A DNA stretch of 28,400 nt, taken from a virus. Where the stretch lies: positions 1-28,400 of IMG/VR virus record IMGVR_UViG_3300042905_001781. The stretch is one strand, 5' to 3'. A program made the position numbers and the translations under genes. Below, piece after piece: positions 261 through 14,756 of this stretch. The notes beneath the pieces were generated by a model. The model did not search any database. It had not been told where the DNA came from and saw nothing but the letters and a program-made list of their open reading frames with translations. How positions within the stretch are numbered: the first letter of the stretch is position 1; every line of letters starts with the position of its first letter.

Positions 261-452
261 TTAATCTTCCATTGGGTTGTCGTCAATGTCTCCAAGCAAC
301 CACTCGATTGCGTTGCGGACACCCTCTTCGTACGTCATTCCATGGAACCGCGACCTTCCACGATTAATCAGCACTATTGCCTGCTCGACAACAGCATTTA
401 CCTCACTGGAAGTCCTTACAGCTTGTACAGTGTCTTTTGGTGCCTTCTTCAT
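261..452 (-). CDS. Small unknown phage protein, last gene of the thyX operon
   Basis: This 63-residue product starts MKKAPKDTVQ. The ATG lies one base after the TGA of the preceding gene and has an AAAGGG ribosome binding site 5 bases upstream. Longer in-frame extensions would overlap the upstream gene and lack a site. The C-terminal half (residues about 40-63) holds a short amphipathic helix (EGVRNAIEWLLG) and an acidic tail. I do not recognise a family; its size and position suggest an accessory or regulatory peptide. Transcription probably ends at the hairpin just beyond its stop. Confidence 0.6.
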   Translation of the reverse strand: MKKAPKDTVQAVRTSSEVNAVVEQAIVLINRGRSRFHGMTYEEGVRNAIEWLLGDIDDNPMED

Positions 453-453
453 C

Positions 454-675
454 TCAACCCTTTCGTAACTTAGGAGTAGGTCTTCCAACACGCTTGGACT
501 TAACCGTCTCCGGTAGTCCCCAAGCCTCAATACAGGTATCAACGATCAGCTTGGCCTTAGTCTTCCCTGTCTGTTCCATTTTCACTCTCACAGCTTCCCA
601 GAACTCCTTAGAGGCTGAGATTCCATGGACTGCACTGTCGCCTTCATTGCGACCCTTCTTCTGTTCACTTGGCAC
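454..675 (-). CDS. Small ribbon-helix-helix-like protein (putative DNA binding)
   Basis: This 73-residue basic protein starts at GTG, chosen because AGGAG lies 7 bases upstream. A TTG 15 bases earlier would sit inside that site. A short beta-like stretch (AVHGISAS) is followed by two predicted helices joined by a GKTKAKLI turn, the pattern of CopG/Arc-type ribbon-helix-helix DNA-binding domains. A basic Lys/Arg-rich C-terminus follows. The family assignment is inference from this pattern. The gene is packed between two others, so a repressor acting on its own operon or on the control region at 2532-3217 is plausible. Confidence 0.55.
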   Translation of the reverse strand: MPSEQKKGRNEGDSAVHGISASKEFWEAVRVKMEQTGKTKAKLIVDTCIEAWGLPETVKSKRVGRPTPKLRKG

Positions 676-686
676 TGATAATCTCC

Positions 687-941
687 TCAAGTTCTTGTTT
701 CGATAAAAGCAGCTTCCACGAAGCTATCGTACTTACCAACCTGTTCTTTAATCATCCATCCATTGCGTTCGAAGTCATAGCTGACCTGAATATCAGGTGC
801 GTACCGAACATCTATCAATCCAATACGCAGAGCCTTGGGCCTGCCTTCACATTGAGGATACCACAGGTTTACATACACCTCATCCGCAGTCGTTCTGCTA
901 ATGTCCTCAATCATAGCGTTGAAACATTCGTCACTTATCAT
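687..941 (-). CDS. Unknown 84-residue protein of the thyX operon
   Basis: The product starts MISDECFNAM and is mixed alpha/beta in character: a helical N-terminus (residues 1-18), then strand-rich sequence with VYVNLWYP and a VSYDFERNGW hairpin-like segment. I do not recognise a family and see no catalytic motif. Its start overlaps the end of the upstream gene by 11 bases and its TGA forms part of the leader of the next gene, so translation of the three is probably coupled. The site in front of the ATG is weak (GGTGA), which fits coupling. Confidence 0.6.
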   Translation of the reverse strand: MISDECFNAMIEDISRTTADEVYVNLWYPQCEGRPKALRIGLIDVRYAPDIQVSYDFERNGWMIKEQVGKYDSFVEAAFIETRT

Positions 942-1095
942 CGGTCACCGCCCGTCTGGTAAGTACATGTTTCTCAGAATCAAACTTATCGCCCAAATGG
1001 TCCTTACGATTTCTCCAAGTCCCATCAGCGTTACGAACCTGATCACCACGTCGCATCATCTCCCCTTCAGCCAACATCCGATATTCACTTGGCAT
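931..1095 (-). CDS. Small protein with a GDQVR motif
   Basis: This 54-residue product starts MPSEYRMLAEGE. The ATG was chosen because AAGGG lies 8 bases upstream, and it overlaps the last codons of the preceding gene. An earlier in-frame TTG has no site. Residues about 14-28 read MRRGDQVRNADGTWR, which resembles HNGDQVRHFDKW at the N-terminus of the neighbouring DUF5664-like protein. This suggests a duplicated or shared small domain. The rest is highly charged. Function unknown. Confidence 0.6.
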   Translation of the reverse strand: MPSEYRMLAEGEMMRRGDQVRNADGTWRNRKDHLGDKFDSEKHVLTRRAVTDDK

Positions 1096-1714
1096 CGTCA
1101 ATACCCTTCTGTGTGTAACCTTCAACTGGATCTGGCTGTAAAGACTTCAATCTCTCCAGCATCTGTTTGTACTGCTCAGAAACCATTGCTGGCGTCTGTT
1201 TACTCCTCGGTGGCCTGTCATCGTTCCAATTGTCCTGAATCATGGCATCACGCAGTACGACCAACGCACTGATCGCTTTCGTGATATGGCTCAGTTGACT
1301 GTCAGGATCAGTATCCTCACCTTCCCACCATGCCTTGATGTGCCTGAATGTAGCATCCCAGTACACTGAGGCTCTGACACCAATCACTCGCCAGTTGTAC
1401 CCACCGTACTTGTACTGACCTTCAGCCAATGCCATTCCTACCTCAGAAATAACTGAAAGGGGAACATTGGCTACTGGAGGCTTAGTACTGCCCACAGCGT
1501 CCTTCGGATTGGTGTCCTTCACATGAGGATTCACAGGACCACAAACTGGCCTGCGGTACTGTACGTCACGCATCCGTTTCTGAGACTCTATGAATGGTGT
1601 CATCTTGTCTTTGGCTTCATACGCAGTAGAAGACCATTTGTCGAAGTGGCGTACCTGATCCCCGTTATGCCAATCAATAACCTCGTGTAGTCCCAACTCA
1701 CGATACTCAACCAT
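1085..1714 (-). CDS. DUF5664-like protein (dATP/dGTP diphosphohydrolase-type)
   Basis: The product has 209 residues. The central region, from NPKDAVG at residues 69-75, continues with KPPVANVP, a helix rich in Ala/Glu, a GGYNW segment, and the helices HIKAWWEGED and SHITKAISALVVLRD. This order is characteristic of the DUF5664 family found in many phages, annotated as dATP/dGTP diphosphohydrolase and thought to cleave purine deoxynucleotides with an all-alpha, MazG-like fold. The family call is from memory of these motifs. The extra N-terminus (residues 1-60) carries HNGDQVRHFDKW, shared with the next small gene. The ATG overlaps the end of thyX by 8 bases and has GGAG 9 bases upstream. Next to thyX it would fit adjustment of the dNTP pool during infection. 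Confidence 0.65.
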   Translation of the reverse strand: MVEYRELGLHEVIDWHNGDQVRHFDKWSSTAYEAKDKMTPFIESQKRMRDVQYRRPVCGPVNPHVKDTNPKDAVGSTKPPVANVPLSVISEVGMALAEGQYKYGGYNWRVIGVRASVYWDATFRHIKAWWEGEDTDPDSQLSHITKAISALVVLRDAMIQDNWNDDRPPRSKQTPAMVSEQYKQMLERLKSLQPDPVEGYTQKGIDDAK

Positions 1715-2531
1715 TCTGATACTCTCCTTTCAGAGTCTTACGATACTGTTCCCACCCATTCCCAAGATTCCCTGTGTCACCGCACAAATGAGCGTATTCG
1801 TCAGCCATGGCAACATGCTCAAACGGACTAAAGTGTTTACTAGCCAATAGTCGATCATGCAGATCAATATCAGCCTGTACGTCTCGGACACCATCATGAG
1901 TCAAGTACGAAATTCTCGCGTTGCGTCCTACCGATACCTTAACCTTGTCTTCATCACTCAGAAGTTCATCACCCTCAAAGCCGATCAATGGGAGATGCCA
2001 TTGTCCCGCAGAGAGTTTCTGAGGAATAGATTGACTACGTACCTCACGAGCCATTCCAGCTATCTTCTGAATGTGTGGCTCAGCCTCATGATGACATCTC
2101 AGAGCAAAGAAGTTATTCCAAGCTCCTTCATTGCCAGTACAGATAACCGTACACCACATCCACGGTTCGAGGATACGATTGACGATCTGTTTGTGCAGCC
2201 CTTGATCAAGCATCCCTTCTGCTGCACCAAGAGCATAATCCCTGGCTGTCAACCAACGATCTACACACTCGTTTGCATCAACACCAGTAAACTGCTCATA
2301 CGCCTGCATACCCTTCTGAGCCTTACCCCAATGCAGCGGTATGAATGGGTTGGTTTCGACTTGTTGTATCATCTTCTCCACAGGTATGGCACGACTGGAT
2401 GCAGCATTCCTGCTGAACATTCTGTGCGTCAATATTTCACTATGGATAAACCGTGGATACGTCAACTCCATCGTCGTCAACCTGTTGTCACAGGTATTGG
2501 TACTGTCTGCGAGTACCTTAGCATTAAACAT
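1707..2531 (-). CDS. thyX: Flavin-dependent thymidylate synthase ThyX
   Basis: This 274-residue protein makes dTMP from dUMP using methylenetetrahydrofolate and FADH2. The ThyX signature is visible at residues 35-47 as THRMFSRNAASSR, the phage form of RHRxxSxNxxSxR that binds FAD and dUMP. A second conserved block, SPFEHVA, lies near the C-terminus. The middle holds the W-rich NNFFALRCHHEAEPHIQ segment typical of phage and plastid-like ThyX proteins. Length is within the family range. It is the first gene of the leftward operon. The ATG has GGAG 6 bases upstream and a TTGACT-16-TACAGT promoter candidate about 40-65 bases away. It supplies dTMP independently of host ThyA. Confidence 0.93.
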   Translation of the reverse strand: MFNAKVLADSTNTCDNRLTTMELTYPRFIHSEILTHRMFSRNAASSRAIPVEKMIQQVETNPFIPLHWGKAQKGMQAYEQFTGVDANECVDRWLTARDYALGAAEGMLDQGLHKQIVNRILEPWMWCTVICTGNEGAWNNFFALRCHHEAEPHIQKIAGMAREVRSQSIPQKLSAGQWHLPLIGFEGDELLSDEDKVKVSVGRNARISYLTHDGVRDVQADIDLHDRLLASKHFSPFEHVAMADEYAHLCGDTGNLGNGWEQYRKTLKGEYQNG

Positions 2532-2570
2532 CTCTTTCTCCAGAAACAGTTAAGAAGCTACCACCAACGA

Positions 2571-2598
2571 ACTGTATCATATTCCCTACATCAGTCAA
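2571..2598 (-). promoter_or_regulatory. Candidate sigma70-type promoter for the thyX operon
   Basis: On the minus strand TTGACT is followed after 16 bases by TACAGT. Transcription would begin near 2564, giving a leader of about 33 bases before the thyX ATG. The -35 matches 5 of 6 consensus bases and the -10 matches 4 of 6. The call rests on position and hexamers only. Confidence 0.45.
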
Positions 2599-2798
2599 CA
2601 GTCTGTTACACATTTCTTGTACACTATCTGTACACGTCGAGGCTCTAGGATCGCTTATAGGCTCCTGTAGCCATTGGTCGACTCTCAGGTCATCCTGACA
2701 ATCCCATCGCTTCCTAGGCCTATCCTGTGCGACGAGAGAGGCATATCCGTGGTATGTGCCGACTGCAGTGACAATCTGTAGGTATTTTTAGACAAGTG

Positions 2799-2827
2799 TT
2801 GACAGAACGTAACGATGCTGCCATACT
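2799..2827 (+). promoter_or_regulatory. Candidate rightward promoter in the control region
   Basis: A perfect -35 hexamer TTGACA is followed after 17 bases by CATACT (4 of 6 consensus bases). Transcription would start near 2834, about 380 bases ahead of the first clear rightward gene, implying a long leader or a small RNA. Confidence 0.5.
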
Positions 2828-2837
2828 GATGGCATCG
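2813..2837. promoter_or_regulatory. Inverted repeat straddling the -10 element, possible operator
   Basis: CGATGC and its exact complement GCATCG, separated by 13 bases, flank the -10 hexamer and predicted start of the promoter at 2799-2827. A dimeric repressor bound here would block that promoter. The half-sites are short, so chance is possible. Confidence 0.3.
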
Positions 2838-2922
2838 AGGTAAAGCCACAAGCTACTGGCGTCTGTCTCGGTGTCACCACGGAGGAAGTGTTGCTGAAAC
2901 TTTCGTGATAGGTGACATTAAA

Positions 2923-2937
2923 TCAAGTATCACTTGA
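2923..2937. promoter_or_regulatory. Perfect 15-bp palindrome TCAAGT-ATC-ACTTGA, possible operator
   Basis: Two 6-base arms are exact complements around a 3-base centre, the size of a typical binding site for a dimeric phage regulator. It lies about 90 bases downstream of the rightward promoter candidate. No protein partner is proven; the small ribbon-helix-helix-like protein at 454-675 is one candidate. Confidence 0.35.
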
Positions 2938-2964
2938 ACAGCAAAGGATCAGACTCCAAGAGAA

Positions 2965-2986
2965 TTCCCGCTTAACCGCGTGGGAA
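2965..2986 (+). other. Stem-loop in the control region
   Basis: TTCCCGC pairs with GTGGGAA (one G-U pair) around an 8-base loop. No T-run follows, so it is not a standard terminator. It may be part of a structured leader or small RNA transcribed from the promoter at 2799. Confidence 0.3.
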
Positions 2987-3015
2987 CCTACGGAGGGTTT
3001 AGGATCAGCTTAATG

Positions 3016-3124
3016 GACTACAGCTAGTCACTTACAGTTGCTACTGTAGTCTAGTCATTACTCACAGTAACACTAGATGCTGTAGACCATACAGTAGTAG
3101 TAACAGTAACAATCATTACTCACA
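3016..3124. repeat. Cluster of short inverted and direct repeats
   Basis: GACTACAG at 3016-3023 is the exact complement of CTGTAGTC at 3044-3051. TCATTACTCACA occurs twice (3055-3066 and 3113-3124). AGTAACA occurs three times between 3065 and 3112. The region is AT-richer than its flanks. Iterated short repeats beside a control region are typical of protein-binding arrays or replication origins. The function is inferred. Confidence 0.5.
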
Positions 3125-3144
3125 TCACTCAGATAGAGTAGCTC

Positions 3145-3173
3145 TTGACAAGCAAGCCTGATGAACTTGTTTC
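3145..3173 (+). promoter_or_regulatory. Weak candidate promoter for the HNH gene
   Basis: A perfect TTGACA -35 is followed 17 bases later by TGTTTC, a poor -10. It lies 45-70 bases ahead of the HNH start. The -35 and the position support it; the -10 does not. Confidence 0.25.
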
Positions 3174-3217
3174 TGAGTGTTTATTACTTTCATCAATCCA
3201 TCATCAGGATTACTCCC

Positions 3218-3733
3218 ATGCTTACTCAGGACCGATTGAAGGAACTTCTGCATTATTGCCCAGAAACTGGTGTGTTCACGAGGTTGGTTGGTAATAAACG
3301 TGGCACACATGCTGGAGACGTAGCTGGTGGCGAATTCCGAATAGCCTGTGGTAAGTCGTATCGCAGGGTAACGGTGTGCGGTCGCGATTACCTTGAACAC
3401 AGACTTGCATTTTTGTACATGACGGGTGTATTCCCAGAAGATCAAGTAGACCACATTGACGGCAACGGCCTCAATAATGCTTGGATCAACCTTCGGGCAG
3501 TTGATGGTGCTGAAAACCAGAAGAACAAGCGTAAGCCTGCCAACAACACGTCAGGAGTTATGGGCGTGTGTTGGAGTAGGAGATCAGGGAAATGGGAATC
3601 TCATATTCGCCATGCAGGACACAGCAAGCATCTAGGCTATTTCCACGACAAAGAAGATGCCATTGCCGCCCGTAAGGAAGCAGAAAAGAAATACGGTTAC
3701 CACGAAAATCATGGAACTGAACGACCACTGTAA
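3218..3733 (+). CDS. HNH homing-type endonuclease with AP2 DNA-binding domain
   Basis: The product has 171 residues from the ATG that has AGGA 8 bases upstream. An earlier in-frame ATG at 3161 has no site. The N-terminal half carries the HNH_3 pattern: EHRLAFLYMTG, then VDHIDGNGLNNAWINLR with the catalytic His in DHIDGN, then ENQKNKR. The C-terminal half, TSGVMGVCWSRRSGKWESHI followed by HLGYFHDKEDAIAARKEAEKKY, is an AP2-type DNA-binding domain. Such stand-alone phage genes cut one or both strands at a target and spread by homing, and some help packaging. CAGTAACA repeats lie on both sides (3065-3112 and 3738-3745), possibly marking the insertion. The gene is monocistronic or weakly linked to the next one. 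Confidence 0.9.
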   Translation: MLTQDRLKELLHYCPETGVFTRLVGNKRGTHAGDVAGGEFRIACGKSYRRVTVCGRDYLEHRLAFLYMTGVFPEDQVDHIDGNGLNNAWINLRAVDGAENQKNKRKPANNTSGVMGVCWSRRSGKWESHIRHAGHSKHLGYFHDKEDAIAARKEAEKKYGYHENHGTERPL

Positions 3734-3772
3734 CTGACAGTAACACACCTCCACCCCCAGTGAGAGGTAGTC

Positions 3773-4459
3773 ATGAAGAGAGTTCCTCCAGTACTTGTTG
3801 TAGGCGACACACATGCACCGACGATGCTTTCAGGTTATCCTGATTTCCTCGTCAGAGTGTATGAGAAGTACCGCTGTGGTGCTGTAGTTCATATCGGTGA
3901 TCTCGCTGACCTCCACTGTGTCAGCTATCACGAGAAAGATCCCGATCATGCTTCTCCTCAGTCAGAACTCGAACAGGCAATTGATCAAATAGCTGAGCTA
4001 ACTGCTCGGTTCCCACGAGTTTCGTTACTGTTGGGGAACCACGATGCTCTGGTTCAACGTCAAGCCACTACTGCAGGTATCTCTCAGAAAATGTTGAAGC
4101 CGTTCAAGGAGTTATTCGAACTCCCCCGAGGATGGCAAGTCTACCCAAGATACCACAAGCTGACCTGCAATGGTGTACTTTACCAGCATGGTGATCAAGG
4201 TAAGGGTGGGCAATTCGCTGCCCTACGTAATGCTCAAGCTGAATTTTGCTCAGTCGTACAAGGGCACCACCATTCGCAGTCAGGTGTCTGGTACCATGCC
4301 AATGAGAACAACCTGATCTTTGGTATGCAGGTAGGCTGTGGCATTGACCGTCAGCATCAGCAAATGGCATACGGTACTAAGTTTAGTTCCAAGCCTATCA
4401 TTTCTTGTGGCGTAGTCATCGACTCTCAAACAGCTTTCGTCGAAAGGATGACATTGTGA
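3773..4459 (+). CDS. Calcineurin-like metallophosphoesterase
   Basis: This 228-residue protein has the dimetal phosphoesterase motifs in order: GDTHAP (D12, H14), GDLADLH (D43), GNHD (N89, H90), a late HGDQGKGG and GHHHS. These residues bind two metals and hydrolyse phosphate mono- or diesters. The substrate cannot be read from sequence; phage members include DNA-end, RNA and nucleotide phosphatases. The ATG has a GAGAGG site. Its last codons overlap the GTG of the next gene, so the two are co-translated. Length is typical for compact phage members. Confidence 0.88.
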   Translation: MKRVPPVLVVGDTHAPTMLSGYPDFLVRVYEKYRCGAVVHIGDLADLHCVSYHEKDPDHASPQSELEQAIDQIAELTARFPRVSLLLGNHDALVQRQATTAGISQKMLKPFKELFELPRGWQVYPRYHKLTCNGVLYQHGDQGKGGQFAALRNAQAEFCSVVQGHHHSQSGVWYHANENNLIFGMQVGCGIDRQHQQMAYGTKFSSKPIISCGVVIDSQTAFVERMTL

Positions 4460-4770
4460 AACTAAATATCTGCGGACGGAAGTATACAGTGAGACGTGGT
4501 GATATCCCGGGTAATCTAGGACTCTGTGAGAGTGACAAGGCAGTGATTACCATCGCCTCGGATCTGGAGGTTCACAGCAATATTCCTCCAGAAACTATTC
4601 TGCTACACGAGGTAATTCATGCCGTCCTCTACGAGACTGGACTGGGTCACGTAATGAAGGGTACGGTTGAAGAAGCTGTAGTTCACGGACTGGCTCTGGG
4701 GCTTAGTCGGGTTGGGTATATCCTGAACAAACCTCTTCCAGAATGCTTATCAAACAATGCACCCGAGTGA
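4456..4770 (+). CDS. Small HExxH zinc-metalloprotease-like protein
   Basis: This 104-residue protein starts at GTG, overlapping the previous stop by 4 bases, with AGGA 7 bases upstream. The motif LLHEVIHAVLYETG is a zincin HExxH site, and an EEAVVHGLALGL helix about 25 residues later can supply the third ligand. The arrangement resembles ImmA/IrrE- or SprT-like domains that phages often encode. The substrate is unknown; cleaving a host regulator or processing a phage protein are both possible. The last 68 bases are overlapped on the other strand by the DUF559 gene. Confidence 0.7.
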   Translation: MKLNICGRKYTVRRGDIPGNLGLCESDKAVITIASDLEVHSNIPPETILLHEVIHAVLYETGLGHVMKGTVEEAVVHGLALGLSRVGYILNKPLPECLSNNAPE

Positions 4771-5107
4771 ATACGTCAGCATTACGGAACCTGATTATCG
4801 TTACACCCTGCTTCTTCAATCGTCTAGTCCTAAGCCTATCGTTTCGTTTGACATCCTTTCGGTCATGAACCTTACCATCAATCTCAACAGCCAGCTTTAG
4901 ACTTTCACAATAGAAATCTGGGATGTACCCGTAGACTACCTGCTGTGGTAGGAACTGGTGCTCCCAAGTCTTCTGTCGCTTCTTTAGTCTATTCCAGAAC
5001 AATGCTTCTGCTCTGGTCATGTTGTTTCGTAGTTGTAACGCATAATTCGCCGTAGATGTCTTGCATCTCTTAGGGGACCGTGGTACCTTACGTCGAAGCC
5101 GTGCCAT
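4703..5107 (-). CDS. DUF559-family endonuclease-like protein (Vsr/PD-(D/E)XK fold)
   Basis: This 134-residue basic protein starts MARLRRKVPRS; GGA lies 6-7 bases ahead of the ATG. The core reads NNMTRAEALFWNRLK, FLPQQVVYGYIPDFYC, LAVEIDGKVHD, RLRTRRLKKQGVTIIRFRNADV, which is the DUF559 pattern of a Vsr-like restriction-endonuclease fold. Likely catalytic residues are the Glu of TRAEA, the Asp of IPDFYC and the Glu of VEIDGK. It is alone on the minus strand among rightward genes and overlaps the end of the HExxH gene, as expected of a small inserted selfish or defence-related nuclease. It may nick or repair DNA; the target is unknown. Confidence 0.85.
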   Translation of the reverse strand: MARLRRKVPRSPKRCKTSTANYALQLRNNMTRAEALFWNRLKKRQKTWEHQFLPQQVVYGYIPDFYCESLKLAVEIDGKVHDRKDVKRNDRLRTRRLKKQGVTIIRFRNADVFTRVHCLISILEEVCSGYTQPD

Positions 5108-5164
5108 AACACTTCCTTTCTCAGAAATTATTGAAGGCCCTTGAGGTTTAAGGACCAATAAGAA

Positions 5165-5425
5165 ATGGACATACCGACTATCGTTACAACTGTACTCAGC
5201 ATCCTAGCACCAGTTGGTGCCTCTGCAACAGCATTGTGGAAATGGATTGTCCGCCAATTAGACGAGTGCAAAGCCAAGCACGCTGAGTCGTTGGAGAAGA
5301 TTGATAACCTTCACGATGAGCTACGTACTCTCTCAGAAGATGTCGGCAACATGCGTGGTCAGCTAAGCGTATACCAATCACGTAAAAATATAGAAAAGGG
5401 TGTTGACGTTACACCCACACCTTGA
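5165..5425 (+). CDS. Small membrane/coiled-coil protein (holin- or spanin-like size)
   Basis: This 86-residue product starts MDIPTIVTTVLSIL. Residues about 5-29 form one hydrophobic segment ending in WKWIV, then residues 30-72 are heptad-like and charged (SLEKIDNLHDELRTLSEDV), consistent with a coiled coil. A Pro-rich tail closes it. One membrane helix followed by a coiled coil fits an inner-membrane spanin, a holin accessory or an anchored regulator. No endolysin is next to it, so a lysis role is only a possibility. AGGA lies 10 bases before the ATG. Confidence 0.6.
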   Translation: MDIPTIVTTVLSILAPVGASATALWKWIVRQLDECKAKHAESLEKIDNLHDELRTLSEDVGNMRGQLSVYQSRKNIEKGVDVTPTP

Positions 5426-5443
5426 TAATCTTTGCGTAAACAT

Positions 5444-5515
5444 ACCCACAAACTTAGTTACGGCACCATTATCAGGTAAACCAAGGTAACTTTAAGTCCC
5501 TGTGGGTTTTGTTAT
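5444..5515 (+). terminator. Long structured terminator after the small membrane protein gene
   Basis: ACCCACA pairs with TGTGGGT. Inside it CTTA pairs with TAAG and GTTAC with GTAAC, around a loop of about 24 bases. The 3' arm runs directly into TTTTGTTATTT. This is compatible with a rho-independent terminator or a regulatory fold separating the 5165 gene from the late operon. Confidence 0.5.
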
Positions 5516-5523
5516 TTGAAGAT

Positions 5524-5548
5524 CGGATCGTTGATCCGCTGTTGTTTT
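5524..5548 (+). terminator. Second hairpin with a T-rich tail, upstream of the late operon
   Basis: CGGATC and GATCCG are exact complements around a GTT loop, followed by CTGTTGTTTTT. The T-run ends only a few bases before the GGGGGA ribosome site and ATG of the next gene. It could terminate read-through, protect a processed 5' end, or mark the edge of an inserted cassette. Confidence 0.45.
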
Positions 5549-5558
5549 TGGGGGACAC

Positions 5559-6146
5559 ATGAACGCATACGAGACATCAATCAACCTTGGGCTAACCGGG
5601 ACAGACGCAGAGCAGGTAGCAACTCTCAAGGCTACCGGCGTTACAGCACGCCCGATCGTTCTGGCCGAACTGCTTTTCCTGCTCAACTTCCGGGGCATGT
5701 TGACGAAATTAGTCAGCAACAACAGTGACGAAAAATGGTCAGGAACAGTCCTGGCAATGAAGGCTGCGATTGCTGCTGATGCGGTCGCTACGGCTCATGT
5801 AGATCGGTGGTTAAGCCACATTACGAATCCACGCAACACACACTGGGACACCACGGACGCGAACTATTCTGCACCGTTCTGGGCACTGTCTCAGGCAGTT
5901 GCTGGTGGTCCGGGAATGCCAAGTGTTGAGGATTTCGCGGCGGTCGCTGCATTGGGTGGCGGGTGGCTGTTTGCGGACCTGACAGCACAGCAATTTGCGG
6001 CACAGCGAAACGCGGCAGCATCTGAGGCAGATCGCCAACAACTGCAGTCTGAGTGGGTTTCATGGCTCAATGAAACAATCAATCCCTTGATCGCTGCTGG
6101 TGACGTGGCTGGCGTCAATACTGCACTTGCCGGGAAGCAATTCTAA
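5559..6146 (+). CDS. Unknown protein opening the fibre/appendage block
   Basis: This 195-residue product starts MNAYETSINLGLTG, with GGGGGA just ahead of the ATG. It is Ala-rich and mostly helical: residues about 30-50 are hydrophobic (VLAELLFLLNFRGML) and the C-terminal third is a long Ala/Gln helix ending in an EWVSWLNETINPLI segment. I do not recognise a family. Its stop overlaps the next ATG (TAATG) and it shares that gene's unusual codon use (many GCG alanines), so the two probably entered together. A structural or chaperone role for the appendage is a guess from context. Confidence 0.6.
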   Translation: MNAYETSINLGLTGTDAEQVATLKATGVTARPIVLAELLFLLNFRGMLTKLVSNNSDEKWSGTVLAMKAAIAADAVATAHVDRWLSHITNPRNTHWDTTDANYSAPFWALSQAVAGGPGMPSVEDFAAVAALGGGWLFADLTAQQFAAQRNAAASEADRQQLQSEWVSWLNETINPLIAAGDVAGVNTALAGKQF

Positions 6147-6937
6147 TGGCCGACGCAACTTTGACAGACCTGCTTGGAACGGACATTCATTTCCATTACG
6201 ACGTGAGCAATGCAGCGTTGATTTTCGAAGACACGAGCGGCACAGACGCAGCCGAAGATGGCGACATCGTTAGGTGTTTGAAACCGACTTCGTTAGCAAC
6301 ATTATCTGTGAACTTAACGGAAGCTACAAACGGTCCAGCGTATGCGGCAAATTACAGCGGAAGCGGTTATCCAGCGATCGTGTTTGACGGCACAAATGAT
6401 CTGCTCCGAAACGGTAGCACGGGGGCAACAGCCGGGCGATTTTTTGGGCTGTGCGTCATGACTCCTGTCGGAGCTGGCCGCGTTTGGGCGAGAGGAAACT
6501 CAACGACGGCTTACAGCAGTCTTTACATCAACAGTTCGACGGTCCCGAGATATCAAAGCCACAACGGAACTACGCTGACGGACCTCACAATAACGACATC
6601 AGGCAGGGTGTGTGTGGCTCAGTGTTTTGGTGCAAATCAGCAGCAGATCGACGGACTTGGAGCCAGTTCCGGTACATCTTCCGCAACGTCTCCCGTCAGT
6701 GCATCGCTGGCTGCAGAATTAACACTCGGTGCGTTGTGGACAGGGTCGGCATCGCAATTCGGCTCATTTGCGTTTCACGAACTGCTCATTATCGGTGGAT
6801 CGTGCGAGTGGGGGCAAGTTCTTCGGGCCGCAAAATTGCTGCGCACCAAATGGGGAATTACCGATCCGAACGGGACGCCACAGTCGGCGAGCGGCGGCGT
6901 GCGAATGGTAAACGTCAGAGGAGGAGCGGATCAGTGA
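6146..6937 (+). CDS. LamG/concanavalin-like appendage protein
   Basis: This 263-residue protein is rich in Gly, Ser, Thr and Ala. Residues about 70-90 read YPAIVFDGTNDLL, the FDGxND signature of jelly-roll LamG/concanavalin A-like domains in many phage fibre and appendage proteins. A later FAFHELLIIG strand and a C-terminal LLRTKWGI helix match the usual end of such domains. They commonly bind carbohydrate, so receptor or surface binding is likely. It overlaps the preceding gene by one base and the following one by four (GTGA), showing tight co-translation. Codon use is GCG-rich like its neighbours on either side. Confidence 0.65.
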   Translation: MADATLTDLLGTDIHFHYDVSNAALIFEDTSGTDAAEDGDIVRCLKPTSLATLSVNLTEATNGPAYAANYSGSGYPAIVFDGTNDLLRNGSTGATAGRFFGLCVMTPVGAGRVWARGNSTTAYSSLYINSSTVPRYQSHNGTTLTDLTITTSGRVCVAQCFGANQQQIDGLGASSGTSSATSPVSASLAAELTLGALWTGSASQFGSFAFHELLIIGGSCEWGQVLRAAKLLRTKWGITDPNGTPQSASGGVRMVNVRGGADQ

Positions 6938-8664
6938 AAATAAAACGAGGCTCTACCTCAGTTCGACGGTTAATCTTTATTGCGGACAGTGCAAGCACAA
7001 CCGGTGCAGGTCTGGCAAATCTGGTATTCAACACTGCGTCTCTTGTCGGCTATTACTTCGCTGGCGACCTGTCCAATGAAGTGCAAATTACGCTGGCCAC
7101 AGCAACGCTCGGCACGTTCGCTAGTGGCGGGTTTATTGCGGTTGACAATACGAACATGCCGGGATGGTACGAGATCGGAATCCCGGATGCGGCACTCGAT
7201 GGCGGCAATGAATGTGCCATCCAGTTTCGTGGTGCAACAAACATGGTTCCGGTGAATATCTACATTGAGTTGGATGCGTTCGATTACCAAACTGCGACTC
7301 AGCCCGTCAATACGACTCAGTTCGCCGGAACAAACATCACAGCGGCGGCTGGAATTCCAGAAGTTAAGGTTGCAAGCATCGCAGCCAACGCGGTCAACGC
7401 ATCATCCCTCGCGACAGACGCGGTGACAGAGATCCAGAGCGGACTTGCGACACAGGCAAGCGTTGATGATTTGCCAACGAACGCGGAACTCGCGACTGCT
7501 CTCGGCACCGCTGATGATGCTGTGCTAGCGGCTATTGCGACAGTGCAGAGCGATACAAACGACATTCAGACGCGACTGCCAGCAGCCTTGGACGGTGGCA
7601 GAATAGCAGCGGTACTGGACTCCGCTGCTACTGCCGCATTGGTTGACCTGATCTGGGACGAGCCATTAACAAAAGCTACCCATAACGTCGCGACTTCATC
7701 GGGCAAACGACTGCGACAAACGAATGCGTTCCAACAAATCGACTCGACTGTTATTGATGCGTCTGCAACAACGACCACGTTCGCTACTGACCTCGATTCA
7801 GCGGTTGATAACTTCTACAACGACTCGATGCTTGTGTTCACTGACGGGGCACTGGTCGGTCAGGTCCGTTCGATAGTAGACTATGTGGGAGCCACAAAGA
7901 CTATCGTGCTGGAGGAACCTCTGACATCGGCTCCGGTCAACGGAGTGGCGTTTACCATCGTGTCGCTGCATATCCATCCGGTGAGTCAGATTCAGAGTGG
8001 GCTGGCGACGAGTGCTGCATTGGCCGCAGCTAAAACTATTTTAGACAAGGTTGATACCGGACTGGTCGTCGACGGTGCTGTTTACCAGTTTACTGCGAAC
8101 ATGCTGGAGCTGGCACCTGCTGGTGGTGGAGGTGGCGGATCTGGAGATGCTACGCTTGCTAAACAGGAAGAGATCCTTACCCAGCTAGATGTGATCCAAA
8201 CCAAGACAGATACTATCGGATCTGTTGGTGCCATTACTTCCTTGCTGGCTGCAGCAGTTCTCGAACCCGGAACCATTACTTCGTTCCCAGAAACTCTTAC
8301 GATCGGTGACTCTTACACCGAACAAAACGGTCGTGAGATACAGATCCCAATCGTTGACACTGATGGTACTCCGCTATCGTCTACAGGCTCACTGAACTTT
8401 GCTGACGCTTCTGTTACTTTCACGCTTCAACGATCCGGTGAGACAGACTCTACACGAGTCATTACAGGTACTGCAACTTTCGTAGACCCTCCAGGTACTG
8501 GAACAGGTGCTGGTGCTCCTTATGCGGTCATTGAGCTTCCTGCTTCAGAAACAGCCAAGGGACTCAAGAAGTACAAGTACTCTGGTATCCTGACCTTCCT
8601 TTGGACAGGCACAGGAACTGATGTGATGTCCTTCGAGACTGATACCGTTACATTCGACTCGTAA
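6934..8664 (+). CDS. Tail fibre/appendage protein with chimeric composition
   Basis: This 576-residue protein starts at GTG, chosen because GAGGAG lies 7 bases upstream and the start overlaps the previous stop. A longer in-frame extension would overlap the upstream gene. The N-terminal 100 residues are beta-rich. The middle is a low-complexity Ala/Thr helix region with IQSGLAT twice and the IWDEPLTKATHNVATSSG motif known from many phage fibre-like proteins. A (Gly)6 linker at about residue 398 leads to an EILTQLDVIQTKTDTI coiled-coil strip and a C-terminal beta domain with GTGTG linkers. Alanine GCG codons are frequent before the Gly linker and almost absent after it, so the gene looks like a fusion of foreign 5' and resident 3' parts. 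Confidence 0.7.
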   Translation: MKIKRGSTSVRRLIFIADSASTTGAGLANLVFNTASLVGYYFAGDLSNEVQITLATATLGTFASGGFIAVDNTNMPGWYEIGIPDAALDGGNECAIQFRGATNMVPVNIYIELDAFDYQTATQPVNTTQFAGTNITAAAGIPEVKVASIAANAVNASSLATDAVTEIQSGLATQASVDDLPTNAELATALGTADDAVLAAIATVQSDTNDIQTRLPAALDGGRIAAVLDSAATAALVDLIWDEPLTKATHNVATSSGKRLRQTNAFQQIDSTVIDASATTTTFATDLDSAVDNFYNDSMLVFTDGALVGQVRSIVDYVGATKTIVLEEPLTSAPVNGVAFTIVSLHIHPVSQIQSGLATSAALAAAKTILDKVDTGLVVDGAVYQFTANMLELAPAGGGGGGSGDATLAKQEEILTQLDVIQTKTDTIGSVGAITSLLAAAVLEPGTITSFPETLTIGDSYTEQNGREIQIPIVDTDGTPLSSTGSLNFADASVTFTLQRSGETDSTRVITGTATFVDPPGTGTGAGAPYAVIELPASETAKGLKKYKYSGILTFLWTGTGTDVMSFETDTVTFDS

Positions 8665-8679
8665 GATTCGACACACCCC

Positions 8680-10572
8680 ATGTCGCTAGAACTTGAAATA
8701 GACCCAGCTTCTTCTTACATCTCAGGCAATCAGAAGATCAAGGTTCCAGATCCCATCTACGAATTCGATAAGATGATTGGATGGAAATGGATCGAACTGA
8801 ATACCTGCGACTTTCTTAGAGGCATCCCCGGATACGACCCATTCGTTACAGCCAAAGACTATTACTTTGACTGTGCTGAATGGGATCGTATAATTGCATT
8901 CGTAGTCAATGAGTGCTGCTTTCCAGAAGGTGAGTTGACAGGACTTCCATATATCCCTGAACGATGGCAGTCCAGCATCTATGCGAACTTGTTCTGTTGG
9001 AAGCACAAGGATACCCACCTTCGACGTTACCGCGAATGTTTCATCTACGTTCCACGAAAGAATAGTAAGACTTCGAGCTTTGGGGCGATCATCTCCCTAA
9101 TCATGTTCTTCGTAGACAAAGAGAAACGCTCACAAAACTATTGCTGTGCGGCTGATGTGGAGCAAGCCTCCAATAACTTCCGCCATTGTCAGTACATGAT
9201 TGAGAACAACCCCAAGCTAATCTCCAGACTGCGAGAGAAACGTGTCTTTCGATCTACAAGATCCTTTGAGCACACTGATGGAGCCATCTACAAAGTCCTA
9301 TCTTCTATTGCAGATACCAAGCACGGACTGTCTCCCAACTTCGTTTATGTCGATGAAGTCCACGCTCATCCCAACAGCGAACTTATCGACGTTATGCTCA
9401 CTGGAACCGCTGCCCGTACCCAGCCCTTGGTACTGTACACGACTACCGCTGACTATGATCGCCCCTCAGTTTGCAATAGCCTCTACGACAAAGCCAAAAA
9501 CATTGCCAGTGACAAACAGTGGGAACCAACCTTCCTGCCAGTGATCTACGAAGCCGATCTTTCTGATGATTTCCGTTCAGAAAAGGTGTGGAAGAAAGCC
9601 AACCCTAACTACGGTAAGTCAATCCGTAAAGATTACTTCGAGCGTCTGGTTCGCAACGCCCAAGACAACCCTGTAGAACTTAACCGATTCCTTCGTCTCC
9701 ACCTTAACGTCCGTACCAAAACAGAAACAGCTTGGATTCCATCCCACATCTGGGCCAACGGAAACGCTAGTCCTGAAACCCCATTACTCTCAATCGTTGC
9801 TATCAAAGAATGGATGTCCAAGCACCCATACTGGTGCAACATTGCTAACGACCAGAAATTTACTACGGCAACTTCGGTCGACGTGTACATTGGCCGTTAC
9901 CAGCTTTACTGGTCGTGGTTCATTCGTCAAGTTGAGTTCCTGCAGGAGGAAGAATGCTACGCTGGATTCGACAACGCTTCAGTGAACGATATTGCATCAC
10001 TGAACTTGTGGTTTCCTAAGTACGGTGTTATGCTACATTGGGGTTGGTGTCCTGCAACCTCCATCTACCAACGATCACAGGAACAGAACTTACCTTACAG
10101 TCAATGGTGGGAATCAGGCGTTATCAATGCAACATCCCCTTTGGATACAGTCGATGAGAACGCAATCATTACTGCCATGCTTGGGGATGGAAACAACAAA
10201 GGTATCCTGTCCCATTTCTCCGGTTGTCGAGAGATATGCTTCGACCGCTGGGGATCACATCATATTTACACCACCCTCAAGCAATACGGATTTCCAGCTA
10301 GAGCTTACCCCCAGTCCTTTGCTGGAATGAACGAACCTTGCCGTCGAATGGAAGCGTTGGCTATCGACCACCAATTCCAGCACGGAGGCCACCCTGTCCT
10401 TGATTGGATGATCGGAAACGTAGTTATCGTACAGTCCAGAGATGGACAACGCAGACCGGACAGATCGAAGTCTACCAACAAGATCGACGGTATCGTAGCG
10501 GGGTTAATGGCCATGGGAGCATGGATGTACCCTGAAGTTGAAACCATCACAGAAATCCGTGGTTTGAAATAG
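8680..10572 (+). CDS. terL: Terminase large subunit
   Basis: This 630-residue packaging motor is an ATPase that pumps DNA into the prohead plus a nuclease that cuts the genome. The Walker A variant PRKNSKT is at residues 125-131 and Walker B FVYVDE at 221-226, followed by the coupling stretch LYTTTADYD. The RNase H-like nuclease begins at YAGFDNASVNDIASL (Asp431) and ends with NKIDGIVAGLMAMG near Asp603, as in Terminase_1 (HK97-type) proteins. The linker between AWIP (351-354) and the nuclease is about 50 residues longer than usual. No small subunit is recognisable next to it. There is no clear ribosome site; the ATG follows the fibre gene by 15 bases. Confidence 0.92.
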   Translation: MSLELEIDPASSYISGNQKIKVPDPIYEFDKMIGWKWIELNTCDFLRGIPGYDPFVTAKDYYFDCAEWDRIIAFVVNECCFPEGELTGLPYIPERWQSSIYANLFCWKHKDTHLRRYRECFIYVPRKNSKTSSFGAIISLIMFFVDKEKRSQNYCCAADVEQASNNFRHCQYMIENNPKLISRLREKRVFRSTRSFEHTDGAIYKVLSSIADTKHGLSPNFVYVDEVHAHPNSELIDVMLTGTAARTQPLVLYTTTADYDRPSVCNSLYDKAKNIASDKQWEPTFLPVIYEADLSDDFRSEKVWKKANPNYGKSIRKDYFERLVRNAQDNPVELNRFLRLHLNVRTKTETAWIPSHIWANGNASPETPLLSIVAIKEWMSKHPYWCNIANDQKFTTATSVDVYIGRYQLYWSWFIRQVEFLQEEECYAGFDNASVNDIASLNLWFPKYGVMLHWGWCPATSIYQRSQEQNLPYSQWWESGVINATSPLDTVDENAIITAMLGDGNNKGILSHFSGCREICFDRWGSHHIYTTLKQYGFPARAYPQSFAGMNEPCRRMEALAIDHQFQHGGHPVLDWMIGNVVIVQSRDGQRRPDRSKSTNKIDGIVAGLMAMGAWMYPEVETITEIRGLK

Positions 10573-10580
10573 GACATCAC

Positions 10581-12392
10581 ATGGGCTGGTTTTCTCGCAA
10601 ACCAAAAGATACTATCTCCAAGACCGCTGTCGGTAACCTCATCGACATCGTGCTTAACACCACAGGTACGCTGTCGTGGAAGAACCTGTTCGGCGTACTG
10701 AATCACGAGAAACAGTATACCAACAACACGACTGCTGCTCTGAAGCTATCTGCCGTTAAGTGTGCTATCGACATTTACACCGGCATGATCGGTTCCATTC
10801 CTCGTCGTATGTACGCACTGGAAGCTGGCTCACAAGCTAAGACTAAAGTCGTACCCACAACGGACAACCCAGCATCACGTATCTTCTCTCATTACTTCCA
10901 TCCAGAACTATCCTCCGACGACGGTCTCCTGACAATCGTCTACGATGTTCTGATGGACGGTAATTGCTACTTCTACCGAGAGCGTGACCAACAAGGCCGC
11001 ACATCCCGCCTGTACTACATTCACCCATCCAGAATTACCCGAGGGAACATCTCTCGTGCTTCTGGTCAGGAGCAACTGTCCACGGGTCGTAAGGCGTCTC
11101 AAGGTGAGCTTCTGTACCGCATTGACACAGGAGTATCCTCTCGCGACATCCGTACAGAGCCTCTGCTGCTGCCTAAGAGCGACATTGCCCACTTCAAGGG
11201 TAAAGTCCTCGATACGGAATACCACCGTGCTATCGGCTTCGTAGAGTGTTCTGAGGTGTCTCTGGATCTCTACCGTGCGTCTGAGGAGTTCGGCTGGAAG
11301 TTCTACAGCCGTGGTATCGCTACGCAGATGTTCCTGACCACAGAGAACCGACTGGCTCCTGAAGTCCTGAAGCGTCTCGAAGCCAACTTCACAGACGACC
11401 CCAACGCTCCACTGGAGGACATCTTCCGTACCCGTATCCTTGAACAGGGACTCAAGCCTGTTCACATGGGTATCCCATTCCAGCATCTCCAGTTCATCGA
11501 GACTCGTGCCTTCAGCGTGGAAGACGTAGCTCGTGGGCTGAACATCCCCCCTGCTCTGCTCCACAGTTACATGGGGACCAAAGCTGGTGATGCTGATCTG
11601 TCGCAGGCAGTAGCCCTATTCGTCCAGACTGGTATCGGCCCATTACTCTCACGTATCGCAGGTCAGTTCAAGTCGGAGCTTATCCCTCTTCCGTCTCAGA
11701 TGCTGTATTGCTTCGAGTTCGAGTTACTGTACCTCTACCGCAACGTCATCGACAAGTTTACTACTGCTCTCAGAAACTTGTTCGAGATCGGCTTCATCGA
11801 CAGAACTTATGGTGCTGGTCTGCTCGGTATGCACATTGATCCTAATGATGAGTCAAGTTCTCTGCGTTACGTTCCTGTTAACCTGATGACTGTCCAGCAC
11901 TCGCTCCACTTGGAGGAAGGTGCTGACCTTGCCAACGACATGGCTGAAGCTCAGATCGAAACCACCAAGAAGACTAACGAAGGTATGGTGTCTGCCGAAG
12001 AGCACGCAGCAGTCACGGAGAAAGCTGAAGCAGCCAAAGCTCCATCAGGAGGCAAGATGGACAAGTCTCCTTCGGGCGACAACATCGACAAGCGTATCCG
12101 AAATGCTGAAGAGAGAGTCAAGTCAGCATTTCTCAACGTCATCAACGGCTTGAAGCAGTACGAGACTCGTGTACTTGATCAGAAGAAGCAGTCCCGTCCT
12201 GATGACTTCGATGCTGCCAAGGCTGAGTTCTACAACGATAAGTTCCACGGAATGCTGATGGACCAGCTAGCACCTTGGAAAGACCTGATCACCATTGGTC
12301 CGTCAACTCTGGACAACGTCGTCGCAGATTGGGTATCCAACCAGAAATCACCAGAAGGAATCGACAATGAAGTCACTTGTATTGAACCGTAA
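10581..12392 (+). CDS. Portal protein, HK97 family
   Basis: This 603-residue protein forms the dodecameric ring at one vertex through which DNA enters and leaves. The family pattern is visible: an N-terminal SAVKCAIDIYTGMIGSIPRRMY helix, DVLMDGNCYFYRERD, a beta wing with IAHFKGKV, then PEVLKRLEANF, GIPFQHLQFIETRAFSVEDVARGLNIPPALLH and an LLYLYRNVIDKF helix. The C-terminal 150 residues are charged and helical (crown/barrel region), longer than in HK97 itself. AGGA overlaps the terminase stop and lies 6 bases before the ATG. The next gene starts inside its last codons. Confidence 0.92.
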   Translation: MGWFSRKPKDTISKTAVGNLIDIVLNTTGTLSWKNLFGVLNHEKQYTNNTTAALKLSAVKCAIDIYTGMIGSIPRRMYALEAGSQAKTKVVPTTDNPASRIFSHYFHPELSSDDGLLTIVYDVLMDGNCYFYRERDQQGRTSRLYYIHPSRITRGNISRASGQEQLSTGRKASQGELLYRIDTGVSSRDIRTEPLLLPKSDIAHFKGKVLDTEYHRAIGFVECSEVSLDLYRASEEFGWKFYSRGIATQMFLTTENRLAPEVLKRLEANFTDDPNAPLEDIFRTRILEQGLKPVHMGIPFQHLQFIETRAFSVEDVARGLNIPPALLHSYMGTKAGDADLSQAVALFVQTGIGPLLSRIAGQFKSELIPLPSQMLYCFEFELLYLYRNVIDKFTTALRNLFEIGFIDRTYGAGLLGMHIDPNDESSSLRYVPVNLMTVQHSLHLEEGADLANDMAEAQIETTKKTNEGMVSAEEHAAVTEKAEAAKAPSGGKMDKSPSGDNIDKRIRNAEERVKSAFLNVINGLKQYETRVLDQKKQSRPDDFDAAKAEFYNDKFHGMLMDQLAPWKDLITIGPSTLDNVVADWVSNQKSPEGIDNEVTCIEP

Positions 12393-13101
12393 GCAGTTGC
12401 CTTCTGGTGAAACGCTGGAGTGCAAGGTCACCTTCAACAAGGCTGACGAACTGCTGATCTATGACATCATCATGCCTCAGAAGACGTACGATGGTGAGAC
12501 CTTCAACTTCGCTACACCCGCCGATGTTACAGACTTCCTGAAGGACGCACCACGCGACTTCAACGTCCGCATCAACTCTTCAGGTGGTGAGGTTGGTGCT
12601 GCTCTGGCAATGTACAACCGCTTGCTGGAGCATCCCGGTAAGGTTACAACCATCGTCGACGGATACGCATTCAGTTCTGCTGGCTGGCTGGCACTTGCTG
12701 GGTCAGAGCGACAGATATGCAATGGTGGTCTGTTCATGATGCACAACCCGTACCTGTATGCCAAGATCGACTCACTCAATGAGATCCAGAACGTACAGAA
12801 CCGCTGGGAGTCCCACCGCAACAGCATCGTAGATATCTTCACTACCAGAACTTCTATGAACGAGGCTCAGGTGAAGACACTTATGGAAGCTGAGACCTAC
12901 ATGTCTGCTTCAGAAGCTGTTACAAACGGTCTGTTCCACTCTGTTCGCAACGCTAAACCTGATACTGCCATCCTTAACTGTTTGCACATCCCAGACGTAG
13001 TTAAGAACCGAGCAGACATTTCTATTGCACAAAATGTAGTAGACGTAAATGCTCTTAGAATTAGAGCTTTGAATCTTCGAAAGAATTTTGCAATTAAGTA
13101 G
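12367..13101 (+). CDS. ClpP-like prohead maturation protease
   Basis: This 244-residue protein belongs to the S14/ClpP-like phage proteases that trim the capsid protein during maturation. FNVRINSSGGEV (residues 65-76) is the substrate-binding loop, DGYAFSSAG (98-106) carries the likely nucleophile Ser103, and MMHNP holds the likely catalytic His126. The ATG was chosen for its AAGGA 7 bases upstream; it overlaps the portal gene by 26 bases. An upstream frame extension would lie inside portal. Gly occupies the position where many relatives have a second Ser. It sits directly before the capsid gene, as is standard. Confidence 0.9.
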   Translation: MKSLVLNRKQLPSGETLECKVTFNKADELLIYDIIMPQKTYDGETFNFATPADVTDFLKDAPRDFNVRINSSGGEVGAALAMYNRLLEHPGKVTTIVDGYAFSSAGWLALAGSERQICNGGLFMMHNPYLYAKIDSLNEIQNVQNRWESHRNSIVDIFTTRTSMNEAQVKTLMEAETYMSASEAVTNGLFHSVRNAKPDTAILNCLHIPDVVKNRADISIAQNVVDVNALRIRALNLRKNFAIK

Positions 13102-13130
13102 TTGACGGGCTTCCGTCATGCTGTTATTCT
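13102..13130 (+). promoter_or_regulatory. Internal promoter ahead of the capsid gene
   Basis: TTGACG, a 17-base spacer and TATTCT form a good sigma70-like promoter immediately after the protease stop. Predicted transcription starts near 13137, leaving a leader of about 70 bases before the capsid ATG. It would raise capsid mRNA above that of portal and terminase. Confidence 0.55.
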
Positions 13131-13196
13131 TACCGTGTCAAAGGCTATGCCCACAGCAACGCACATAAGCAGAAGCCAGATGCCACATCACAATCT

Positions 13197-13212
13197 AGGA
13201 GGTTTTGTCATG
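13197..13212 (+). promoter_or_regulatory. Strong ribosome binding site fixing the capsid start
   Basis: TAGGAGGTTTTGTC precedes the ATG, a full AGGAGG with a 7-base spacer. The same 11-base TAGGAGGTTTT precedes the tail-tube gene, and no other gene here has it. Confidence 0.8.
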
Positions 13213-14661
13213 GCTTCTGCCATCGCTAATCGCGTACTCGTATTTAACGATACGCCTGCCAAGCACGACGACATCGTGAAGATGACCGTCAACCAGCTTC
13301 AGGACGAACGAACTCGTCTCATTACTGTCACCGAAGTCTTCGATGCCAAGGGCGATAAGCTCTCATCTGAAGACGCTCAGGCTTACTCTGATGCTGTGGA
13401 TCGCATTGAAGCGGTTCAGAACGCACTGAGCAAGACTCCTGCCGGTCTCGCTGAGCGTAAGGCTGCACTGCTCGCTACGTCTCGTATTGCCAATGCGACA
13501 AGTGGGCTAACCTTCGACTTCTCCAAGAGTGTACACACTCGACCAGCATGGGAAGACGACAAGGATAAGTTCGGCTTCAAGAACCAGCAGGAATACCTCG
13601 GTGCTGTTGTCAACGCCTACAAGTCTCGTAACCCAGAAGCAATCGACCCACGGTTGAAAGCTGCTGTGATGGACGCAGTAGGATCTGACGAATTCAGCAA
13701 GGCCAACTGGGAAGCAGCAGGTATCACTGTACCTCGTGGCTTCATCAACACGGTTATGCAGCTTGAGCCAGAAGCTGACCAGCTTACGAGCAAGATGACT
13801 CGTATCCCAATGACCGCTCCAACGGTTGACATTCCTGCCCGAGTTGACAAAGACCACAGCACTTCGGTGACTGGTGGCTTCCGCGTCTACCGAGGTAAGG
13901 AAACTGCTGCTCCGACGCTCAGCAAGAACGCCATGGAGATGATCTCTCTGAAGGCACACGAACTGAACGGTGCTGCTGCAGCAACCAATCAGTTGATGGC
14001 TGACAGTCCTCTCTCTATCGCTGCTCTGATTGATCAGGGTCTGCGTCAGGAAGCTCGCTCTTACCGCATCAATGAACTGTTGAACGGTAATGGTATCGGT
14101 CGACCTCTGGGTATGCTGCACGCCAGCAATCCTTCGTTGCTGACTGTGCTGCGAGAGTCTGGTCAGTCAACATCCGTTATCGTCAACGGTACCAACATCC
14201 TCAAGATGCGTCAGCGTGTCTGGGGCTACGAGAATGCAGTATGGTTGTGCTCTCTGGACTTGTTCCCGACGATCGCTACTCTGCACATCGAGTCGCCAAA
14301 CAACGCTGGCCTCGTGAAGCTGTTCTACCCTGCTGACTCTGCCAACCCAGACATGTTGCTCGGTCGTCCAATCATCTGGACAGAGTACATGAACGGTATT
14401 ACGTCTGGTCAGGACGGTAATGTCATCAGCGAGTGGAATACCAACTTCCTTGCTTGCGTCAACCCAACGCAGGTACTGTACGGTGAACGTGGAACTGGTA
14501 CGCTGACTCGCAGCATCCATGTCCGCTTCCTCGAACGAGAAGAAGTGTTCTTGTTCACCAGCTTCGACGATGCTCGCCCATGGTGGACTTCAGTGTTGAC
14601 TCCTGCCAAGGCCGGTCTGACCTTGTCACCGTTCGTTGTCCTGTCTGCGACAACTGCGTAG
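13210..14661 (+). CDS. Major capsid protein, HK97 fold
   Basis: The 483-residue product starts MASAIANRVLVF. Residues about 10-90 are helical and charged, like the delta (scaffold) domain that the protease removes in HK97-type phages. The mature part follows with AGITVPRGFINTVM, MTRIPMTAPTVDIPAR, KAHELNGAAAATNQLMADSP, LIDQGLRQEARSYRINELLNGNGIGRPLGML and LLGRPIIWTEYMN, the usual order of the Phage_capsid family, ending with an ACVNPTQVLYGERG strand region. Several hundred copies build the head. A promoter and a full AGGAGG site precede it and a strong hairpin follows, all consistent with very high expression. No separate scaffold gene is seen. Confidence 0.93.
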   Translation: MASAIANRVLVFNDTPAKHDDIVKMTVNQLQDERTRLITVTEVFDAKGDKLSSEDAQAYSDAVDRIEAVQNALSKTPAGLAERKAALLATSRIANATSGLTFDFSKSVHTRPAWEDDKDKFGFKNQQEYLGAVVNAYKSRNPEAIDPRLKAAVMDAVGSDEFSKANWEAAGITVPRGFINTVMQLEPEADQLTSKMTRIPMTAPTVDIPARVDKDHSTSVTGGFRVYRGKETAAPTLSKNAMEMISLKAHELNGAAAATNQLMADSPLSIAALIDQGLRQEARSYRINELLNGNGIGRPLGMLHASNPSLLTVLRESGQSTSVIVNGTNILKMRQRVWGYENAVWLCSLDLFPTIATLHIESPNNAGLVKLFYPADSANPDMLLGRPIIWTEYMNGITSGQDGNVISEWNTNFLACVNPTQVLYGERGTGTLTRSIHVRFLEREEVFLFTSFDDARPWWTSVLTPAKAGLTLSPFVVLSATTA

Positions 14662-14674
14662 TTCATGCAGGTCT

Positions 14675-14713: not shown

Positions 14714-14756
14714 TTACTTACGACTTTTGATTCTTCTCCTGAACAGGAACAATATA

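Follow-up and report, generated by a model that had tools for sequence, protein, structure and literature searches.

A viral DNA fragment of 28.4 kb from IMG/VR (record IMGVR_UViG_3300042905_001781; the whole stretch of 28,400 nucleotides is referred to as the window), which we read as a fragment of a tailed-phage genome, carries a putative tail-fibre gene that switches its codon usage ahead of its 3' end. The question raised by this locus is how the two parts of one gene came to be joined. Together with two upstream genes, designated A and B, the fibre gene forms a block that directly precedes the gene for the large terminase subunit TerL. The best explanation, which we hold with high confidence, is that the fibre locus is an exchange site at which an NCG-rich patchwork, imported from unrelated phage backbones via short homologies, was joined in frame to a resident C-terminus. 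The imported stretch runs from about 5524 in the leader of gene A to a hinge and a Gly6 linker (8043-8139), and it includes two whole genes and 69% of a third, the fibre gene. At least four pieces make up the block, and they meet at the leader, the fibre start, a short word named J3, and the hinge with the Gly linker. The features of the locus are as follows:

5513-5555, plus strand: J1, the left joint, in the noncoding leader of gene A, with the core CGGATCGTTGATCCGCT at 5524-5540 and a small dyad
5559-6146, plus strand: gene A, 195 amino acids, without an assigned family, imported
6146-6937, plus strand: gene B, 263 amino acids, imported along with gene A
6891-6936, plus strand: J2, comprising the end of gene B, a ribosome-binding site (6920) and the start of the fibre gene
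6934-8664, plus strand: fibre gene, with a GTG start codon that overlaps the gene B stop by 4 bp and with its ribosome-binding site at 6920
6934-7332, plus strand: all-beta N-terminal domain of the fibre (N-domain), residues 1-133, imported
7378-7608, plus strand: coiled-coil stalk of the fibre, with AlphaFold2 (AF2) helices in residues 156-221, a separately moving piece
7606-7628, plus strand: J3, GCAGCGGTACTGGACTCCGCTGC, read in frame as A-V-L-D-S-A, a conserved word joining varied fronts and middles
7609-8112, plus strand: middle module of the fibre, residues 226-393, with a beta domain, imported
8043-8121, plus strand: J4a, the hinge, KVDTGLVVDGAVYQFTANMLELAPAG, common to the imported and the resident sides
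8122-8139, plus strand: J4b, the Gly6 linker, residues 397-402, taken from the translation
8143-8664, plus strand: resident C-terminal domain, a helix (residues 408-441) and a beta sandwich (454-575), with AF2 values mostly of 80-92 in the sandwich

An original prediction made from the sequence alone had claimed that the Ala codon GCG is dense in this block and scarce in the fibre C-terminus and elsewhere, and codon counts confirmed this claim. GCG accounts for 8 of the 36 Ala codons in gene A (22%), for 9 of 31 in gene B (29%) and for 24 of 66 in fibre residues 1-397 (36%), as against 1 of 14 in fibre residues 404-576 (7%) and 50 of 622 in all other genes of the window (8%). The block total (41/133) differs from the rest of the window with a Fisher p of 4.6e-11, all NCG codons taken together are likewise richer in the block (Fisher p 4.7e-14), and GCG usage in the fibre C-terminus is that of the rest of the window (p 1.0). 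Within the fibre gene itself the contrast yielded p 0.053 for GCG alone and p 0.0012 for NCG. Additionally, the GC content is 0.52-0.55 in the block versus 0.45-0.51 immediately outside. The words CTCAGAA and CCAGAA had been described as missing and rare in the block, and their counts of 0 and 1 were correct; compared with expectations of 1.9 and 3.6, however, they are not significant (P 0.15 and 0.13) and carry no evidential weight.

The position of the switch was determined by an unsupervised, amino-acid-conditional change-point model of synonymous codons, which was limited to the genes from 5559 on; in a scan of the whole window the strongest signal comes from the first 5.4 kb, which belong to a different codon class. 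The model returned a single segment at 5691-8044 with a log-likelihood (lnL) gain of 104.6, and in a control on a coarse grid the window reached 97.7 versus a maximum of 46.8 across 40 codon shuffles. The codon switch inside the fibre gene is real, and its right edge maps to 8005-8113 (2-lnL support), just before the Gly6 linker, or to 7996-8152 (4-lnL support); the linker itself had to be moved from about 8125-8142 to 8122-8139. The fibre gene, moreover, had been taken to span from 5559, where genes A and B come first.

The direction of transfer was addressed with a supervised codon model based on 36 donor and 22 lineage contigs, the two groups being defined by similarity to this fibre gene and to TerL, and same-species contigs being excluded. 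With the shared genes left out, the donor contigs' own genes have a mean GCG/Ala fraction of 0.25-0.29 and an NCG fraction of 0.31-0.33; the corresponding means of the lineage of the window are 0.10 and 0.15. Log-likelihood ratios (LLR) pointed towards the donors for gene A (+6.0), gene B (+18.6), fibre residues 1-225 (+16.1) and fibre residues 226-397 (+3.7), and away from them for fibre residues 404-576 (-15.6); all remaining genes of the window are likewise lineage-like. A codon contrast across the hinge was present in each of the 16 lineage fibre genes tested (Wilcoxon p 3e-5). The fronts were therefore imported into the lineage, and repeatedly so.

The relatives of the locus, all of them metagenomic contigs, gave a consistent picture. 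A search with the fibre protein, in which the peptide QFTANMLE was among the keys, yielded 71 loci (L numbers), and different residue ranges of the fibre led to different relatives. Same-species phages, with TerL identities of 99-100%, align with the window as far as 5540-5544 and then carry other genes, before the match resumes at 7610 (L004/5), 8056 (L013) or 8245 (L018). Alignment for the predicted breakpoint accordingly revealed other alleles between 5544 and these three positions, and the pre-fibre genes of these alternative alleles have donor-like codon usage as well (LLR +8 to +26). Relatives with a uniform full-length gene, which the original prediction had named as its refutation, were sought, and only the identical contig L001 has the full-length fibre gene at high identity. 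Stretches of the block are found again, at nucleotide identities of 84-95%, in phages whose terminases are unrelated or were not detected and whose genomes have the same codon usage throughout. The fibre gene shows the marks of a mosaic gene, namely differing nearest relatives with sharp edges, donor codon usage that has been kept, and alternative alleles in close relatives. Import proceeded piece by piece, with in-frame joining, recurrent breakpoints and alternative alleles at one site. The exchange and the resident C-terminus that had been predicted are therefore supported, whereas the single recombined module, with its putative host-range role, has to be replaced by several imports.

The individual pieces lead to different sources. 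Positions 5524-6899 of the window are 84% identical at the nucleotide level in L083, the TerL of which is only 30% identical, and residues 1-251 of gene B share 94% amino acid identity with the same locus; further relatives of gene A occur in L033, L090 and L091. Gene B may be lectin- or LamG-like, and searches of Pfam and of PDB sequences gave no match for this gene. The fibre N-domain recurs at 77-87% amino acid identity in 15 loci, 13 of which lie outside the lineage. Among GenBank phages a single fibre match was found, to the N-domain at 42% on a Manatee Spring contig. Relatives of the N-domain that are 40-51% identical, in Hyphomicrobiales, Spirochaetales and a metagenome-assembled genome, settle no host, and a search of GTDB genomes with TerL, as a prophage route to the host, gave no relatives. 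Stalk positions 7378-7626 are 84% identical at the nucleotide level in L057/L058 (TerL 31%), and positions 7605-8113, which cover the middle module, are 86-95% identical in L021, L023-26, L028, L029 and L036, with TerL at 31% wherever it is detectable. In a tree of middle modules, a test that uses related sequences, monophyly of the lineage was rejected (approximately unbiased test, p 1.9e-36), and the nearest neighbour of the window was the unrelated phage L036.

No Pfam or PHROG family reached the threshold for the fibre gene, and AF2 models show the architecture of a fibre, in which a coiled-coil stalk is combined with modular beta domains around it. As the full-length model is unusable for residues 1-150, the N-domain was modelled alone (predicted local distance difference test score, pLDDT, 82). 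Its best fold match in the PDB is chain AN of 6v8i, an entry for the baseplate of phage 80alpha; the match is weak (E 0.006, TM-score about 0.5) and lacks sequence similarity. The middle module has a weak match to Phage_BR0599 (E 0.015), and the full-length model has weak matches to tail-hub chains.

At J1, same-species homology stops at 5540-5544 and donor homology starts at 5513-5524; the leader is common to same-species phages with other alleles and to unrelated phages, with the exact 20-mer present in 20 viral contigs and the 17-mer core located upstream of at least six different families of first genes. Neither a structured RNA (no Rfam match, fold z -0.68) nor a terminator (a terminator-like match at 5524 does not exceed what chance would give in this region) could be assigned to J1. 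In L037, two direct 17-bp copies of J1, at 8636-8652 and 10534-10550, lie on either side of an A-like gene and a fibre gene, a cassette-like arrangement. At J2, the homology with L083 stops at 6899, and that with at least 17 relatives of the fibre N-domain starts at 6891-6918. J3 was found in 39 distinct contexts, a set that was in part found with the J3 word itself, and it combines many fronts with many middles; an identical front, for instance, is followed by different middles from J3 onward in L026/28/29 versus L068-70. The J3 codons CTG GAC TCC are identical in 20 of 21 occurrences of the motif, counted in loci from the protein search, the keys of which do not overlap J3. Stems of 5-11 bp would let J3 form a hairpin, whether as RNA or as DNA, but similar counts are present in other loops, and among 30 distinct contexts no stem position of the arms covaried above shuffled arms (lowest P 0.125).

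At J4, the match to the lineage starts again at 8043-8079 and that to the donors stops at 8111-8139. This joint is conserved chiefly as protein, the hinge peptide TGLVxDGAVYQFTANMLEL being followed by a linker that is Gly-rich in all phage groups seen and then by a group-specific C-terminus; since QFTANMLE served as a search key, the universality of the hinge cannot be judged from these loci. Model confidence is low at residues 395-404 around the Gly6 linker. Some breakpoints have no shared word, namely those at 8245 in L018 and at about 7299-7378.

Recombination at short homologies is the likeliest mechanism. Phages that co-infect one cell would undergo homologous or homeologous recombination, and crossovers at the short shared sequences (the leader, the fibre start, the AxLDSA word of J3, and the hinge with the Gly linker) would generate in-frame chimeras. 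Shuffling of N-terminal and middle modules and of proteins A and B may diversify adhesion, while the C-terminus would keep a backbone-specific task. Fibre loci that are invertible or varied by diversity-generating retroelements, of the Mu/P1 Gin and BPP-1 types, are likewise diversified at defined points. A site-specific recombinase of the Gin/Hin or integron kind, acting on J1 and J3 to swap or invert fibre cassettes, would explain why short DNA words are conserved at synonymous positions, why J1 and J3 have dyads and why two direct J1 copies bracket the fibre cassette of L037. We nevertheless consider it improbable: a serine recombinase is encoded in only 1 of 44 records, which are fragments, and nearly all records lack a recombinase or reverse transcriptase; J3 is present in one copy per contig, always in fibre orientation; J1 occurs in at most two copies, which are direct and never an inverted pair; and the missing covariation of the J3 arms and the breakpoints without a shared word likewise speak against it.

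The remaining alternatives fare worse. An assembly chimera might be suspected in a metagenomic contig, where homologous hinges could mislead the assembler, but this is very improbable, as L001 is a separate contig that is identical over 11.9 kb (window positions 5418-17351) and crosses both edges of the block, and 16 lineage phages have the same architecture with different fronts and joints in frame. Still less credible is an origin without transfer, in which the switch stems from the composition of the protein or from local selection on codons in an Ala-rich stalk; the block is indeed rich in Ala, and fibre stalks can be compositionally unusual, but the codon tests were conditional on amino acids, the same usage prevails in the donors' other genes, and the unrelated DNA at this place in L004/5, L013 and L018 refutes it. 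A diversity-generating retroelement or hypermutation varying the fibre in place can practically be dismissed: fibre genes are common targets of such elements, yet no reverse transcriptase was detected in 44 records, which refutes this idea here unless the enzyme is encoded outside the fragments, and the alternatives are non-homologous blocks common to other phages, not point variants.

Several observations weigh against the exchange of fibre modules by recombination at short homologies. The Gly6 linker comes about 100 bp after the codon optimum (8008-8044), the donor codon signal of the middle module is weak (LLR +3.7), and close middle modules are present in several lineage phages (L002, L003, L004 and L008), so that some imports may be old. 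RecT/ERF single-strand annealing proteins were detected in none of 30 records, which are fragments. The basis for the putative identity as a fibre and for the predicted role in receptor binding is the architecture together with weak fold matches. Finally, the C-terminus has itself been exchanged within the lineage, since L002, L011, L014 and L017 share 90-94% nucleotide identity with the window in this region and only 81-83% in TerL.

The C-terminal domain was found in 22 loci, all belonging to this TerL lineage (63-100%). In Mantel tests, which use related sequences, similarity of the C-terminus tracks that of the backbone (rho 0.69, p 0.0005), whereas no such correlation holds for the module ahead of the hinge (rho 0.03, p 0.31). 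The classical layout of receptor-binding proteins, with a backbone-tied N-terminus and a variable C-terminus, is not what was found, as phages with other backbones share the N-domain and the middle. Since it is the C-terminus that follows the backbone, the likeliest task of this end would be virion docking or folding and trimerisation, as opposed to the usual N-terminal docking. The baseplate-like match of the N-domain points the other way and argues against C-terminal docking, for which reason we regard the arguments for and against this role as about evenly balanced. A bolder proposal, which we put forward as an unlikely one, is that the J1 leader CGGATCGTTGATCCGCT and the in-frame word GCGG.ACTGGACTCCGCT are maintained as exchange points at the DNA level, and that the unrelated phages of one community would build their fibres from a shared pool, with any front, any middle and their own C-terminus docking to the virion.

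Tail-fibre transfer among P2, Mu and lambda is classical. Domain mosaicism of receptor-binding and tail-fibre proteins, by in-frame exchange of fragments between unrelated phages at domain borders, is well known, with fibre and baseplate proteins as its main class and a conserved N-terminus and variable C-terminus as the usual layout (Smug et al. 2023, PMC10684548). The present locus also exchanges protein fragments in frame at domain borders, but it is the C-terminus that goes with the backbone while front and middle are exchanged, short DNA words are reused at the exchange points, and a codon signature gives the direction. Short boundary sequences in phage mosaicism have been proposed, although they were not identifiable at most boundaries (PMC3029335). 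The module borders described here do bear short shared sequence usable by general recombination; they differ in that one leader occurs in 20 and one in-frame word in 39 distinct contexts. Accordingly, what is unusual about this locus is that a noncoding leader and an in-frame joint word are reused, that composition gives evidence of the direction, and that the C-terminus is specific to the backbone.

The block is followed by structural genes:

8680-10572: TerL
10581-12392: portal protein
up to 14661: head protease and capsid protein

Downstream of the capsid gene, probable tail genes, with those for distal-tail proteins at 20730-23354, are followed at the right end by sugar-metabolism genes, a run of which (23493-28398) probably specifies a C-methyltransferase, a GDP-mannose dehydratase/epimerase-like protein and a glycosyltransferase-like protein. 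The TerL gene of the window is uninterrupted; in several relatives it is split after about residue 130 by about 1 kb of intron- or intein-like DNA, with otherwise intact halves (965-2026 in L015/L016, 9150-10184 in L034, and also in L077/L078/L080; equivalent window position 9071-9077). On the left, the genes at 261-5425 (thyX, HNH, phosphoesterase, DUF559 and others) form a separate codon-usage class, unlike the structural genes; this class, covering the left 5.1 kb, gave an lnL gain of 103 versus at most 44 in shuffles. The DUF559 gene (Vsr-like endonuclease family; 4703-5158, minus strand) lies between the phosphoesterase region and a small gene ahead of the block.

The locus thus captures, almost to the base pair, an exchange of fibre modules between unrelated phages, with defined joints and a direction given by codon usage, and it shows unrelated phages taking their fibre parts from a shared pool. 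It also suggests a reversed layout with the C-terminus as the backbone-specific end, and with the joint words as a simple probe one could gauge how far fibre parts spread among the phages of a community.
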